Positions 15,268 through 21,902 of a DNA stretch of 39,078 nt are shown one piece after another; position 1 is the first letter of the stretch; each line of letters begins with the position of its first letter. Both the position numbers and the translations under genes were made by a program. The stretch spans positions 1-39,078 of the forward strand of contig DAIEQP010000013.1 in the NCBI GenBank assembly GCA_027347805.1, given 5' to 3'. The stretch comes from Ignavibacteria bacterium (lineage in GTDB: Bacteria > Bacteroidota > Ignavibacteria > Ignavibacteriales > Melioribacteraceae). The notes below the pieces were generated by a model. It did not search any database, had not been told where the DNA came from, and saw only the letters and a list, made by a program, of their open reading frames with translations.

Positions 15268-15705
15268 ATGGCAAAATATAAATTCCGGTTTCAATCGATT
15301 CTCTCTGTAAAAGAAATTATGGAGAAAAAAATCCAGGAAGAGATATCGGTAATTAATATGGAGATAGAAAACTGGAAAAAAAAATTACTTGTCTTGAGTG
15401 AAGAAAAAGCAAAAGTAATCAATAAAATAAGTGAGGGATCGGCTAAAGTATCGGAATATCAAAGTATGAAAATGTACGTATCGCATATAGAAAACAAGAT
15501 AGATCAAGCAAACAAAGAGACAGCAAATTGTATTAAAAGAAGAGAGCTTAAACAAAAAGAATTGATTGAGAAAAAAAAAGAAATTAAATCATTCGAAACA
15601 CTGAAAGAAAATGATTATCAAAACTATTTAACTGAAGAAAGAAAAAACGAATTAAAAATGCTTAACGAAGTAGCATTGAGAAATTTTAACGGGGAACCGT
15701 CGTGA
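15268..15705 (+). CDS. fliJ: FliJ-like flagellar export chaperone
   Basis: Coiled-coil, KYKFRFQSILSVKEIMEKKIQEE N-terminus, directly after fliI. Confidence 0.85.
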   Translation: MAKYKFRFQSILSVKEIMEKKIQEEISVINMEIENWKKKLLVLSEEKAKVINKISEGSAKVSEYQSMKMYVSHIENKIDQANKETANCIKRRELKQKELIEKKKEIKSFETLKENDYQNYLTEERKNELKMLNEVALRNFNGEPS

Positions 15706-16358
15706 AAGATAAACTGATTTACATCGTATCGTTTTTATTTGCATTTGTCCTGGTCAGCGGAGCGCTAATTTATTTTAACTCCATTTATAATAATATTTTT
15801 AAGTTCGATTTCTCCCCTGTTAAGGCACCTCTGCTTACACAAGTAAAAAATAATGATCCAGCGCAAAATCAAAATCCCGGAGCGGATTCCCTTAAGAAAG
15901 ATTCAACAAAAGTAAAAATTGATTCTCGTGCTGTAAAACCAGACTCGTCAAAACTGGGGACAATTGCAAAACAGGATTCAATAAAAAATGATAGCAAGAA
16001 AGAAAATTTAGCAAAAGGTAAAAAAGAAGAACCGAAAAATACTTTGGCACAAAACAAAAACGATAAAATTTCACAACAACCTGCAGCCAATTTAGTTCAA
16101 AGTGTTCAGTCAGCAATTCCCCCTTCTATTAACGACAAACTTAGTAAGGCAAAAAAAGATTCAATTTACAGCAGCTGGGTTAAAGAAACTGTAAAACTTT
16201 ATGAATCGATGGATTCCAAAAAAGCTGCTAAAGTAATTAAGGGATACTCCGATAATATCGCCAGAGATATTCTTCTAAAGATGAAGAAGAAAAAAGCGGC
16301 AGAGATTTTAGCCGAATTGAAACCGGAAGATGTAACAAGAATAATAAGTGTTAACTAA
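15702..16358 (+). CDS. MotE-like protein (TM, charged linker, MgtE-N-like C-terminus)
   Basis: N-terminal TM, long S/K/D-rich linker, then YESMDSKKAAKVIKGYSDNIARDILLKMKKKKAAEILAELKPEDVTRIIS; fliJ-x-fliK position. GTG start. Confidence 0.8.
   Translation: MKDKLIYIVSFLFAFVLVSGALIYFNSIYNNIFKFDFSPVKAPLLTQVKNNDPAQNQNPGADSLKKDSTKVKIDSRAVKPDSSKLGTIAKQDSIKNDSKKENLAKGKKEEPKNTLAQNKNDKISQQPAANLVQSVQSAIPPSINDKLSKAKKDSIYSSWVKETVKLYESMDSKKAAKVIKGYSDNIARDILLKMKKKKAAEILAELKPEDVTRIISVN
16229..16255 (+). promoter_or_regulatory. Candidate intragenic sigma-28 promoter reading into fliK
   Basis: TAAAGTAA-N11-TCCGATAA, exact consensus spacing, about 100 nt before the fliK ATG. Confidence 0.45.
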
Positions 16359-19045
16359 TGAACTTCAGTAATTTCTTCATAGACATGTTGAGCGGAAACG
16401 AGCCTGCAATTTCAGCCGGGCAGAAGAAAGCAGCAAATCCCGCATTTTTATTTTCTGATATTATGAAAGTCTGCGAAGATGAAACTTCAAATCCGCTGGA
16501 AAACATAACTGCTAAATCATTACTCGCAGATTCAAAGGAAATATTTTCTACATCCGATAATGTAATCGAAGTTGATCCGAAAGAGTTCGAAGCAATTTCA
16601 CAATTAGTATCGATGATTATAAATCAGTCTTCTGATCAACAGCCGAATGTTATCACACACTCAGTTGACGATGCAACAATTACTAAACAGCAATTCCTGA
16701 TTACAGAAAATAAACTTGTTAATCTTCTTTCAGATTTAATTGAAAAGGGAAATTCCTCACTTAATCCTGTAATTAGTCTTCTTCAATCAAATGAATCGAA
16801 TAAATCCATTTCTCTTTCTTTCAAAAGCGGTTCAAATAAACTGACAGTTTCATTTAACCCGATTAAAGTTGATGAATCTTATACAAATAATGTGATTAAT
16901 GATGAATTCGGATTTGTTAATAAACTGATTGTGAAGGAAGGATTTCTAAATGGCAGCAACGGAAGCCAGATAATCGATCATGATGCAGATGAAAATAGTA
17001 AACCGGAAAAATCTTTGACGACGGATGAAGATAACAAGATAAGTGATGATGCATCAGTGGTAATACCTTCACAAATCTTTTTCCGCGCCGAGATATTGAA
17101 GATTGTTAGCGAAAATCAGGGAAATAACGGAACTGTTGCCGGTTCAGAACAAGAAGGTAATGGAATAGTTTTTCCAAAGTATTATTCTTATAAAATTTTA
17201 GAACAAGAAAATAAGCCAGCAGCAGAAACTCAAAGTGTTAATAAATCTACTGGTGAAGGTTCTTCCGAAAAGAAACCAGCCGTTTTTGACATATCAAACA
17301 ATAAAATTTTAGTGCAGGACGAATCACTTTCATCACTAAAACAGGCTGAAAAAGAAAATGATGCAAATAAATATGTTTCAAATTATTCTGGAACAAATAT
17401 TTCCATATCCTCTGATGAGCAGAACGCTGGCGGCAATGCAAAATCATTATCAAGTCTGCTTGATGGATTAAGCGAAGAGGAAAAATCGGTATTTAAAAAT
17501 TTTGCATCGAAAGGTGAGATAAAGGAAATCAACTTTAAGAAAGAAATTTCCGGCCAGATTAATTCTGAAGAAGCTTTGAGAGACGCTGAAATTGGTTTGA
17601 ATAATATTATTAATACAACGTCCAAAAAGAATCTATTAAATGATGTTACAAATGCTAAACATGTTCAGGCCGCTAATTTAAGTGATATTCAAATTGATAC
17701 AGAAGCAGGGAATGTTACAGTAAAACAATTGGTAAATGAAACGCCATATTTAACCGGCACTCAGCAAATAATCCCGGAAGAGAAAACGATTTTAATAAAT
17801 AATGATAAAGCAGGATTTGACAGCAGCATCAAAATTGTAACTGAGCAGCAAATTGAAAAAGCATCTCAAAGCGTAGATACTTCAATTGCGCTAAAGAATT
17901 ATGATCAAGAATTACCTCTTTCAAAAGCTAAGCTTTTTGCTAAAATGAATTCGAAACTTGCGCTTAATAATGATATTAATACAGAAGTTCCTTACGCAGA
18001 TTCCAATCTTATTGAAGAAGACAATAGTAATTCAATAAAAAAAATTGTTTCTGATGAAAAAATAATTAATCAAGCTAGTTTTACTTATAATATTAAGCTT
18101 GAAAACAAGACTGGGGTACTCAAAGCCGCTCATCAAAATCAAGGTTTTGAGTTTAATGTATCGATGAAAAATTCGGAAAAGAAAGAAGAACAATCTCAGG
18201 TAAGTGCAAAAGTTGATACGAAACAACAAAATTTTTCAGAAGAAAATACAAATCCAAAAGTTTCTGCATCTCCCGAAAAGAAAATTGAAATAAATGTCGA
18301 AACCGGCGATAAAATGAAGATTGCGGCCAAGACTTTGGGAGTAGATAAAAACGAGTCTGCAATTCAAAGTGATTCAACTGTAAAACTGAATTTAAAAGAT
18401 GAAAAACATGCAAACACAAAAGACAAAGTTGAAATGAAAGAAAACTCCGGTGATGAAACTAAGTCAGTAAAACATACATCACAGGATTCGAAAAGTAATT
18501 TTGCTTCAGATGAAGAATCCACAAAGAAAAATTCTACAGAAACATTTAAGACAAATTTTGCAAATGCGATTACAACTGATTTTGAAGTTGAAAAAGCAAA
18601 AGTTTTTACAGAAGCAAAAACATTTCATGAATCTCCAAAAATTATTAAACAGAATGAGATTATTCCTGAGTTTTCAAAGCTAATACAGCAGGGACAAAAA
18701 CAAACATTAACTTTCCAGATTACTCCCGAAAACCTCGGTAAAGTTAAACTTACTGTTGATTTAGTTAATAATCAGATTCAGACAAATATTGAAGTAGAAA
18801 ATGAACAGGTTAAGCAATTTATTCAGACAAACATTGATCAGTTAAAACAAAATTTGCAGGCAAGCGGTATTCATGTAAATAATTTGAATATAAGTCTATC
18901 TGATTACAGTCAAAAAAGTACCGGCAAAATGTTTACTCAGAAGAAAAAGACAGGTATGCAAAACGAAAAAGAATTTAAGATAGAAGATGTAACCGAGCAG
19001 CCATTGAAAAAAATGGGTTATAACACTTACGAATATTTGGCGTGA
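16358..19045 (+). CDS. fliK: Flagellar hook-length control protein FliK (895 aa)
   Basis: C-terminal [63 protein letters not shown] (Flg_hook type); long low-complexity N-terminal region. Confidence 0.93.
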
Positions 19046-19732: not shown

Positions 19733-20113
19733 ATGGCAGAAGTTAACGGCATCTCTGTTCCTTTTATTCCGATTGTTGGAAATGAAGAAATTTCCAAATC
19801 GAGAGTCGGCAGAGAATCGACAAATCGATTCGATGCGATTTTTAAAGAGGAACTTGAGAAAGTTAAATTTTCAAATCACGCATTAAAGCGTCTTGAATCA
19901 CGCAATATTCAGTTAAGCGATGTTGAGTTAAACAAAATTCAGGATGCAGTGCAGAAAGCAGAATCGAAAGGCAGCAAAGATTCTTTGGTAATGATGGATA
20001 AAACAGCGTTCATCGTTAATATACCAAACAAGACTGTTGTAACAGCTATTGATGTAGCTAATTCTTCAGAAAATGTTTTTACGAATATTGATAGTGTAGT
20101 TTTTGCAATTTAA
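19733..20113 (+). CDS. Flagellar operon protein of the TIGR02530 type
   Basis: FSNHALKRLESRNIQLSDVELNKIQDAVQKAESKGSKDSLVMMDKTAFIVNIPNKTVVTAID; flgD-x-flgE position. Confidence 0.9.
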   Translation: MAEVNGISVPFIPIVGNEEISKSRVGRESTNRFDAIFKEELEKVKFSNHALKRLESRNIQLSDVELNKIQDAVQKAESKGSKDSLVMMDKTAFIVNIPNKTVVTAIDVANSSENVFTNIDSVVFAI

Positions 20114-20132
20114 TTAACAAATAACATAAAAC

Positions 20133-20158
20133 AGAGCGGGACCTTCCAAGGACGCTCT
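20133..20158 (+). ncRNA. flgE leader hairpin 1
   Basis: AGAGCG (20133-20138) / CGCTCT (20153-20158), 6 bp perfect stem, 14-nt loop GGACCTTCCAAGGA. Confidence 0.55.
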
Positions 20159-20159
20159 A

Positions 20160-20187
20160 GATCTGGCCGACCGACTGAAGCTGGATC
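20160..20187 (+). ncRNA. flgE leader hairpin 2
   Basis: GATCTGGC (20160-20167) / GCTGGATC (20180-20187): 8 pairs including two G-U, 12-nt loop; directly abuts hairpin 1. Confidence 0.5.
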
Positions 20188-20204
20188 AAACTAAGGAGGA
20201 TCAC

Positions 20205-21902
20205 ATGGCACTCTTAACTTCTCTCTTCGCAGGCGTTTCCGGTTTACGTAATCACCAATCAATGATGGACGTTATCGGCAATAACATCGCAAATGTTAAT
20301 ACAATTGGTTTTAAAGGTTCACGCGTAACATTCAGCGATACATTTAATCAATTTGTCAAAGCAGGCACAAACCCAACTGAAACTACTGGTGGAACAAATT
20401 CATATCAAGTTGGTCTTGGTATGAAGATTAATTCAATTGACCGTAACTGGAACCAGGGTACTTTTGAAAGAACCGGCATTACAACAGATTTAGCACTTCA
20501 AGGACAAGGAATGTTTGTATTAAAAAGCAACGGGCAAAAATTCTTTTCACGCGCTGGTGCTTTTGTGTTTGATGCAAACGGAAAACTTGTAAGCCCTCAA
20601 AATGGTGCTGTTGTTCAGGGTAAAGTCGCAAGTGCGGATGGTGTTATCCCTCCTGGTAATAATCTTGAAGATATAGTTATTGATACCAATTTAAAATTGC
20701 CTGCTGTTCAAACACAAAACATTAAATGGGGCGGCAACCTGAAAAGTAATTCCGATTTAACAAGAACAGAAACTGTTACTCAAAGAGGAAATATTAATTC
20801 GTCGGCGTTAGTTGTTGCACCTGCTGTTGCACCTGCTGTTGATACTACAACTCCAACTAAAGTAACTGTATATAACGAATATGGTACTGCTTATACATTG
20901 GAAACTTCATATACAAAAACTGCTGCAAATACATACACAATGAATTGGGATGTAAAAGATTCTGATGGAACTTCAATTTTAACAACTCCAGGATCTATAG
21001 CCGGATTAGTTTTTGCCGATAACGGTTCCGGTACTTATGCATTGAATGCCGCATCTTTGGCAAAATTTGATGGTACTGCAAATCGTGTTAATGTTCCTAA
21101 TTCAAATGTTGATTTTATAATTGATGCTGAAACAATTACACAAAATTCAAGCACTGCAACTCTTAGTATTTCTGCTGACAACAACAGAATACCAAATGTT
21201 GTAAGTGGTTCAGTAACAGTTTACGATTCATTAGGAACATCACATCAGGTAACTATGAAATTTACAAAGATTGATGACAATCTTTGGACATGGACAACAT
21301 CTGTTCCAGCAACAAGTACAAGTGATGGTAAAATTGCTTCTGCAACCGGAACAATTTTGTTTAATGGTGATGGAACTGTAGATAGTGCAAACATTTCACC
21401 AAACAATCCGACATTTGCATTTACACCTAGCGGCGGTTCTCAAACAGTAAACATTGCACTTGATCTGGGCACAGGATTCAGTGGTGTAACTCAAACATCA
21501 GCAAGTTCGGTTGTAAGTGCATTATCACAAGACGGTTCACCATCCGCATCATTATCAAATTTGAATATTGATCAATATGGAAACGTTGTTGGTATTTTCT
21601 CAAATGGAAGTTCAAAATCTTTAGCACAAATAATGGTTGCTACTTTTAATAACCTAAACGGATTAATTAGCGCGGGCGATAACATGTATTCAGCATACGC
21701 AAACAGCGGCGAACCAAGAATTGGTGCTTTAGGTGAAGAAACAAATACTACGGTTCAATCCGGTGCACTCGAGCAGTCAAATGTAGATCTCTCTGAAGAA
21801 TTCACAAAAATGATTGTATCACAAAGAGGTTTCCAGGCAAATGCACGCGTGGTAACAACAGCAGATACATTATTACAAGAAATAACAAACTTAATTAGAT
21901 AA
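20205..21902 (+). CDS. flgE: Flagellar hook protein FlgE
   Basis: SLFAGVSGLRNHQSMMDVIGNNIANVNTIGFKGSRVTFSDTF...LEQSNVDLSEEFTKMIVSQRGFQANARVVTTADTLLQEITNLIR; strong SD AAGGAGG. Confidence 0.97.
   Translation: MALLTSLFAGVSGLRNHQSMMDVIGNNIANVNTIGFKGSRVTFSDTFNQFVKAGTNPTETTGGTNSYQVGLGMKINSIDRNWNQGTFERTGITTDLALQGQGMFVLKSNGQKFFSRAGAFVFDANGKLVSPQNGAVVQGKVASADGVIPPGNNLEDIVIDTNLKLPAVQTQNIKWGGNLKSNSDLTRTETVTQRGNINSSALVVAPAVAPAVDTTTPTKVTVYNEYGTAYTLETSYTKTAANTYTMNWDVKDSDGTSILTTPGSIAGLVFADNGSGTYALNAASLAKFDGTANRVNVPNSNVDFIIDAETITQNSSTATLSISADNNRIPNVVSGSVTVYDSLGTSHQVTMKFTKIDDNLWTWTTSVPATSTSDGKIASATGTILFNGDGTVDSANISPNNPTFAFTPSGGSQTVNIALDLGTGFSGVTQTSASSVVSALSQDGSPSASLSNLNIDQYGNVVGIFSNGSSKSLAQIMVATFNNLNGLISAGDNMYSAYANSGEPRIGALGEETNTTVQSGALEQSNVDLSEEFTKMIVSQRGFQANARVVTTADTLLQEITNLIR
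20814..20841. repeat. 12-bp tandem repeat, 2.3 copies, in flgE
   Basis: GTTGCACCTGCT at 20814-20825 and 20826-20837, then GTTG; encodes VAPAVAPAV. Confidence 0.85.

Follow-up and report, generated by a model that had tools for sequence, protein, structure and literature searches.

A conserved tandem-hairpin mRNA leader precedes the flagellar hook gene flgE in Ignavibacteria

A GC-rich double hairpin in front of the hook gene flgE of an Ignavibacteria bacterium raises the question of whether the hook protein has a regulatory RNA of its own. The hairpins occupy positions 20133-20187 of a contig stretch of 39,078 nucleotides (GenBank assembly GCA_027347805.1, contig DAIEQP010000013.1), which was analyzed as a whole and is called the window here. 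It represents a flagellar and chemotaxis gene cluster, in which the leader lies between flg_new, a flagellar gene of family TIGR02530, and flgE. An earlier note, made from the sequence alone, had proposed a structured RNA with a regulatory role reserved for the hook protein. Based on the comparison of homologous leaders, we propose with a probability of roughly 60% that 20133-20187 represents a new family of cis-acting mRNA leaders, which would be bound by a dedicated protein that controls the translation of flgE.

The flgE leader folds into two adjacent hairpins

Minimum free energy (MFE) folding of the leader resulted in exactly two hairpins:

20133 to 20158, + strand: hairpin 1, based on the MFE fold and on compensatory changes in homologues
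20160-20167 pairing with 20180-20187, + strand: hairpin 2 with an 8-bp stem (GATCTGGC/GCTGGATC), compensatory changes at all eight pairs

The outer stem of hairpin 1 is formed by AGAGCG (20133-20138) and CGCTCT (20153-20158). It is followed by a 3x1 internal loop with GGA (20139-20141) opposite A20152, an inner stem CCT/AGG (20142-20144/20149-20151) and the tetraloop TCCA (20145-20148), which is variable among relatives. Hairpin 2 is closed by a loop of 12 nt (CGACCGACTGAA, 20168-20179) with the consensus N-GA-MY-GA-H-N-GA-N. A U-run is not present downstream of the hairpins in the window sequence.

Sequence and MFE fold confirm the coordinates and the two abutting stem-loops described in the earlier note, as well as the GC content of about 60% in AT-rich surroundings (60% for 20133-20187 vs 35% for the window) and the Shine-Dalgarno (SD) sequence AAGGAGG behind the hairpins. 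For hairpin 1, the outer stem was drawn correctly, but the single open loop from 20139 to 20152 has to be replaced by the inner stem and the GGA/A internal loop.

Judged from the window sequence alone, the fold is mildly unusual and only modestly better than chance: the z-score was -1.7 in comparison to dinucleotide shuffles, with 60 of 1000 shuffles being as stable, and -1.25 for a 113-nt stretch containing the leader. Among equal-sized segments of the 39 kb, 6 of 3903 fold as stably as the leader. As these single-sequence statistics are mild, relatives were needed to judge the proposed structure, and we accept the fold because the comparative data, and not the single sequence, are decisive.

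Compensatory changes support a conserved RNA structure

A DNA search in 58 related genomes recovered the leader in 40 of them, with flgE downstream wherever this was checked. In the alignment of these 40 leaders, 97% of the pair cells were standard and 83 cells showed double changes, compared with 23 after shuffling and at most 19 with the pairing partners slid. A covariance model (R1) detected matches in further orders of the class, which contain a variant hairpin 1 (GGGCUGGACCU...AGGAAGCCC) with a tip stem of variable length between species. The matches of a broader model constructed afterwards (R2) reach other classes of the phylum.

The final comparison set consisted of 48 diverse leaders. 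Here, 94.8% of the pair cells were standard, and double changes occurred at 16 of 17 pairs, adding up to 246 double-change cells in contrast to 65 in the shuffled and at most 55 in the slid control. In hairpin 1, compensatory changes were found for all six outer pairs and for two of the three inner pairs. The covariation check suggested by the earlier note therefore came out far above both controls in the set of 40 as well as in the set of 48 leaders. Taken together, the compensatory changes show, at the level of sequence comparison, that the leader is a conserved structured RNA.

Apart from the stems, several unpaired bases are conserved in the 48 leaders, whereby rows that were chosen by a model lean toward this model: the internal-loop GG of hairpin 1 is invariant (48/48) with A or G as the opposite base, the third base of this GGN varies (34 A, 11 C, 3 T), and the three GA steps in the loop that closes hairpin 2 are kept in 47-48 leaders. 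The stem of hairpin 2 is mostly 7-8 bp long and stem lengths are narrow overall, as if both loops had to sit at set places.

The element follows flgE across a phylum

Scanning named genomes with the exact core pattern resulted in 70 records, nearly all of them from Ignavibacteria (including Stygiobacter, Melioribacter and Ignavibacterium), and 68 of the 70 precede flgE. The pattern matches L123 and L141, which are without hairpin 2, were considered chance, and the same judgement was reached for the model matches L095, L185 and L186. In the class sample, FlgE and the element are present in the identical 60 genomes of the window's order (60/60 FlgE genomes). For the whole class, FlgE was found in 164 genomes and a model match in 107. 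From the FlgE genomes without a model match, we sampled 20 flgE leaders, which were chosen by gene and not by motif. A divergent element was present in 18 of them, 15 being detected by the model at E <= 0.02 (one of these, L235, with hairpin 1 only) and three by eye; the leader of G063 likewise carries a divergent element. In the sampled flgE leaders of G273 and G637, the element was not found. The element thus follows flgE across a phylum.

Using a laxer search, 34 of 38 genomes contained a single copy. Of the four extra copies, two (G019 and G007) are positioned before a flagellin gene, one (G108) before a gene at the place of fliK, and one (G018) before a gene for a beta-helix-like secreted protein. 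Most flagellin genes are without the hook-type element, and so is flgD next to flg_new in the window. The idea of a hook-dedicated structured RNA consequently holds with regard to structure and to the 68 of 70 records before flgE, whereas exclusivity has to be given up: dedication to flgE is nearly complete, but not absolute.

Some of the copies have peculiar surroundings. The copy in G108 (L187, C224:32235-32310) precedes a gene for a repetitive protein of 663 aa, which follows on fliI, fliJ and a gene of the MgtE_N-like type, and the copy in G018 (L089, C28:98509-98569) lies before the secreted beta-helix-like open reading frame (ORF), whose start codon and N-terminus look odd. G316 (L177) possesses tandem flgE duplicates with an own leader before each copy.

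Comparison with known RNA families

Scanning the window with Rfam 15 at the gathering threshold gave no matches, and permissive settings (E <= 5 to 10) for the leader and its homologues revealed nothing relevant, which agrees with the earlier statement that the leader resembles no recognised one. Termite-flg (RF01729) is a conserved structured RNA, probably cis-regulatory, that is listed from the termite hindgut only (PMC2864571). It shares with the hook leader that it is a structured RNA with a flagellar name, but its model of 106 positions is unmatched by the flgE leaders: in seven genomes, the best match reached 16.1 bits (cut-off 40) and none was located at flgE, ruling out Termite-flg as a relative. 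The candidate cis-regulatory RNA flg-Rhizobiales (RF01736), also named for flagellar genes (PMC2864571), differs in its restriction to Rhizobiales, and the Rfam scan showed no match of this family to the hook leader. A literature search, limited to freely accessible papers, yielded no account of a tandem-hairpin flgE element; a dedicated hook-protein RNA element that is conserved across classes was found neither there nor in Rfam.

A possible mechanism of hook protein control

As covariation and conservation show, the tandem hairpins expose two conserved surfaces for recognition just 5' of the ribosome-binding site of flgE, namely the internal loop GGN/R of hairpin 1 and the apical loop GA-MY-GA-HN-GA of hairpin 2, and keep them at nearly fixed stem lengths. 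A dedicated protein probably reads these surfaces and adjusts the translation of flgE (or the stability of its message) to the needs of hook assembly, analogous to the control of flagellin by CsrA-FliW. The combination of conserved loops and freely varying stems suits such a bound partner, and a shared trans-acting factor is favoured because the element also occurs on genes far from flgE. Through the rare copies before flagellin and in the fliK position, this control would extend to further exported flagellar proteins. A comparable case is known from Caulobacter, where the flagellar protein FlbT binds to the leader of flagellin, although both the gene and the protein are different. If the tandem-hairpin leader indeed regulates flgE in this way, it would explain how hook protein synthesis is matched to assembly in these bacteria and would assign a role to family TIGR02530.

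The SD sequence itself was considered as a part of the element. In many leaders of the order (L002-L040), it lies within a short self-complementary stretch (AACCTTAGGAGGTT), which is weak in the window (20187-20204, 2 bp). The idea that a third, SD-hiding hairpin helps to define the element was discarded, because this hairpin is frequent in the order, but limited to these 2 bp in the window and not maintained in distant leaders. Anti-SD pairing by the CCU of hairpin 1 was rejected as well, because this triplet is not conserved and turns into CCC or CUC in distant members.

flg_new as a candidate partner of the leader

In each of the 50 named loci in which the adjacent gene flg_new could be located by pattern, it lies upstream of the element, with 16-36 nt between its stop codon and the matched core. 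A family search detected flg_new in 30 of 40 genomes, and all 30 element-bearing genomes tested possess the gene. Among the ten genomes without flg_new, four are without FlgE and six encode it (five of family f29, plus G637). In the four of these six that were readable (G273, G281, G296 and G637), flgD is directly followed by flgE, with neither the element nor flg_new. As other tested members of the G637 family have both, at least two losses must have occurred, with flg_new and the element both absent in each case.

On the protein level, flg_new shows a weak similarity to DUF4258 (18.2 bits, below the Pfam cut-off of 25), which recurs in 34 of 46 homologues and spans a conserved SxHAxxRLxxR stretch. 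His49, Arg53, Arg57 and Lys79 are invariant. According to PMC11980606, DUF4258 belongs to the RelE/ParE (BECR-fold) superfamily. AlphaFold modelling of flg_new (two models of moderate confidence, mean pLDDT 71 and 79.5) showed helices followed by a beta sheet, and small RNase and ParE-type domains of the BECR superfamily were among the top weak Foldseek matches. Any likeness to this superfamily lies in the weak similarity over the SxHAxxRLxxR stretch and in the helices-then-sheet arrangement; differences are the position of flg_new in a flagellar operon, with no evident antitoxin, and the absence of a significant structural match. Comparing the flg_new sequence with solved structures gave no match either.

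Based on these sequence data, the flg_new product is the likeliest binder of the leader, an assignment that we make tentatively and that implies a hypothetical RNA-binding activity. It is rather doubtful whether flg_new is a toxin-fold (RelE/DUF4258-like) protein that was turned into a specific RNA-binding regulator and constitutes, together with the leader, a hook-control pair parallel to, or able to replace, CsrA-FliW on flagellin genes.

Several observations weigh against the proposed protein-bound leader and its assigned partner. The distance between hairpin 2 and the SD is variable (5 nt in the window, but reaching about 40 nt among its relatives), so no conserved SD-hiding switch is seen. 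Since flg_new adjoins the element, a single deletion could remove both, and their joint disappearance is support rather than proof. Finally, none of the Foldseek matches of the two flg_new models was significant: the lowest E-value was 0.26, and the TM-scores did not exceed 0.44.

Alternative explanations for the flgE leader

The compact fold, the strongly conserved unpaired bases and the nearly constant stem lengths would also fit a riboswitch that senses a metabolite such as a motility second messenger, whereby the ligand would be held in a pocket made of both loops and alter flgE translation; c-di-GMP riboswitches often precede motility genes. The presence of one copy per genome, almost exclusively at flgE and not at metabolic or signalling genes, speaks against this, as do the widely varying SD spacing, the apparent lack of a conserved terminator or SD-hiding alternative and the absence of any Rfam riboswitch match, making a riboswitch quite improbable. 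An element for stability or processing would act on a flgE message that is released by cleavage from the long flagellar operon: by shielding or setting its 5' end, the hairpins would raise the output of hook protein relative to that of its neighbours. Such an element would be in agreement with the position between operon genes, with the stable hairpins and with the many copies of hook protein that are required. We nevertheless regard it as unlikely, because a plain stabiliser would not need invariant internal- and apical-loop bases across classes and does not predict the co-absence with flg_new. Considering that the additional copies at flagellin and fliK belong to genes for exported proteins, the element could also be a signal in the messages of exported subunits (hook, flagellin and FliK) that directs them to the export apparatus for localised translation, and flagellin mRNA localisation has been reported for Campylobacter jejuni (PMC4894983). 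Other exported proteins, such as that of the adjacent flgD in the window, and most flagellins are without the element, which renders mRNA targeting very unlikely.

CsrA-FliW control of flagellin is well known, and the hook leader might in principle be a CsrA target whose repression is lifted by FliW. GGA triplets are indeed present in hairpin 1 and in the SD, and of the genomes tested, 16 of 20 contained CsrA and 13 of 16 contained FliW. In contrast, three genomes of 97-100% completeness (G299, G328 and G432) carry the element without matches to CsrA or FliW, the third base of the GGA is variable and located in an internal loop, and proper CsrA-type hairpins with an ANGGA loop are found on flagellin genes of the same genomes. 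No ANGGA apical loop is present in the hook leader, as the apical loop of hairpin 1 is variable and its GGN internal. This explanation is therefore largely refuted and retains hardly any probability. The leaders of the CsrA-FliW system, as in Bacillus subtilis hag, resemble the hook leader in having a hairpin just 5' of the SD of an abundant exported flagellar protein and in the presumed translational control tied to export. They differ in their single hairpin with an apical ANGGA, whereas the hook leader is tandem, has other conserved loops and is kept without CsrA and FliW.

The canonical CsrA-type hairpins were observed at flagellin loci of 16 genomes (L199-L221), with the ANGGA apical loop and about 35-50 nt before the start, including the window's own genome (L212, ATCAGGCAAGGATGCCTGGT). 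CsrA-FliW control of flagellin in Ignavibacteria is likely because these hairpins are present and both proteins are encoded. In the tandem flagellins of G019 (L199/L087) and G007 (L217/L088), the first gene carries the hook-type element and the second one the CsrA-type hairpin, a split that hints at comparable jobs of the two devices.

Genomic context of the leader

The genes around the leader are arranged in the order fliK-like, flgD, flg_new and flgE. The gap between the flg_new stop at 20113 and the flgE ATG at 20205 holds both hairpins, followed by the SD:

16358-19045: fliK-like gene, Pfam Flg_hook match
19733 to 20113, + strand: flg_new, flagellar protein of family TIGR02530, 126 aa (113.8 bits, cut-off 83.2)
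20114 to 20132, + strand: AT-rich unstructured spacer from the flg_new stop codon to hairpin 1, read from the sequence
20193 to 20199, + strand: Shine-Dalgarno AAGGAGG of flgE, read from the sequence
20205 to 21902, + strand: flgE, flagellar hook protein, 565 aa (NCBIfam FlgE, E = 3.5e-108; TIGR03506 above cut-off)

Further upstream, an ORF with an MgtE_N-type domain (15702-16358) is located between fliJ and fliK.
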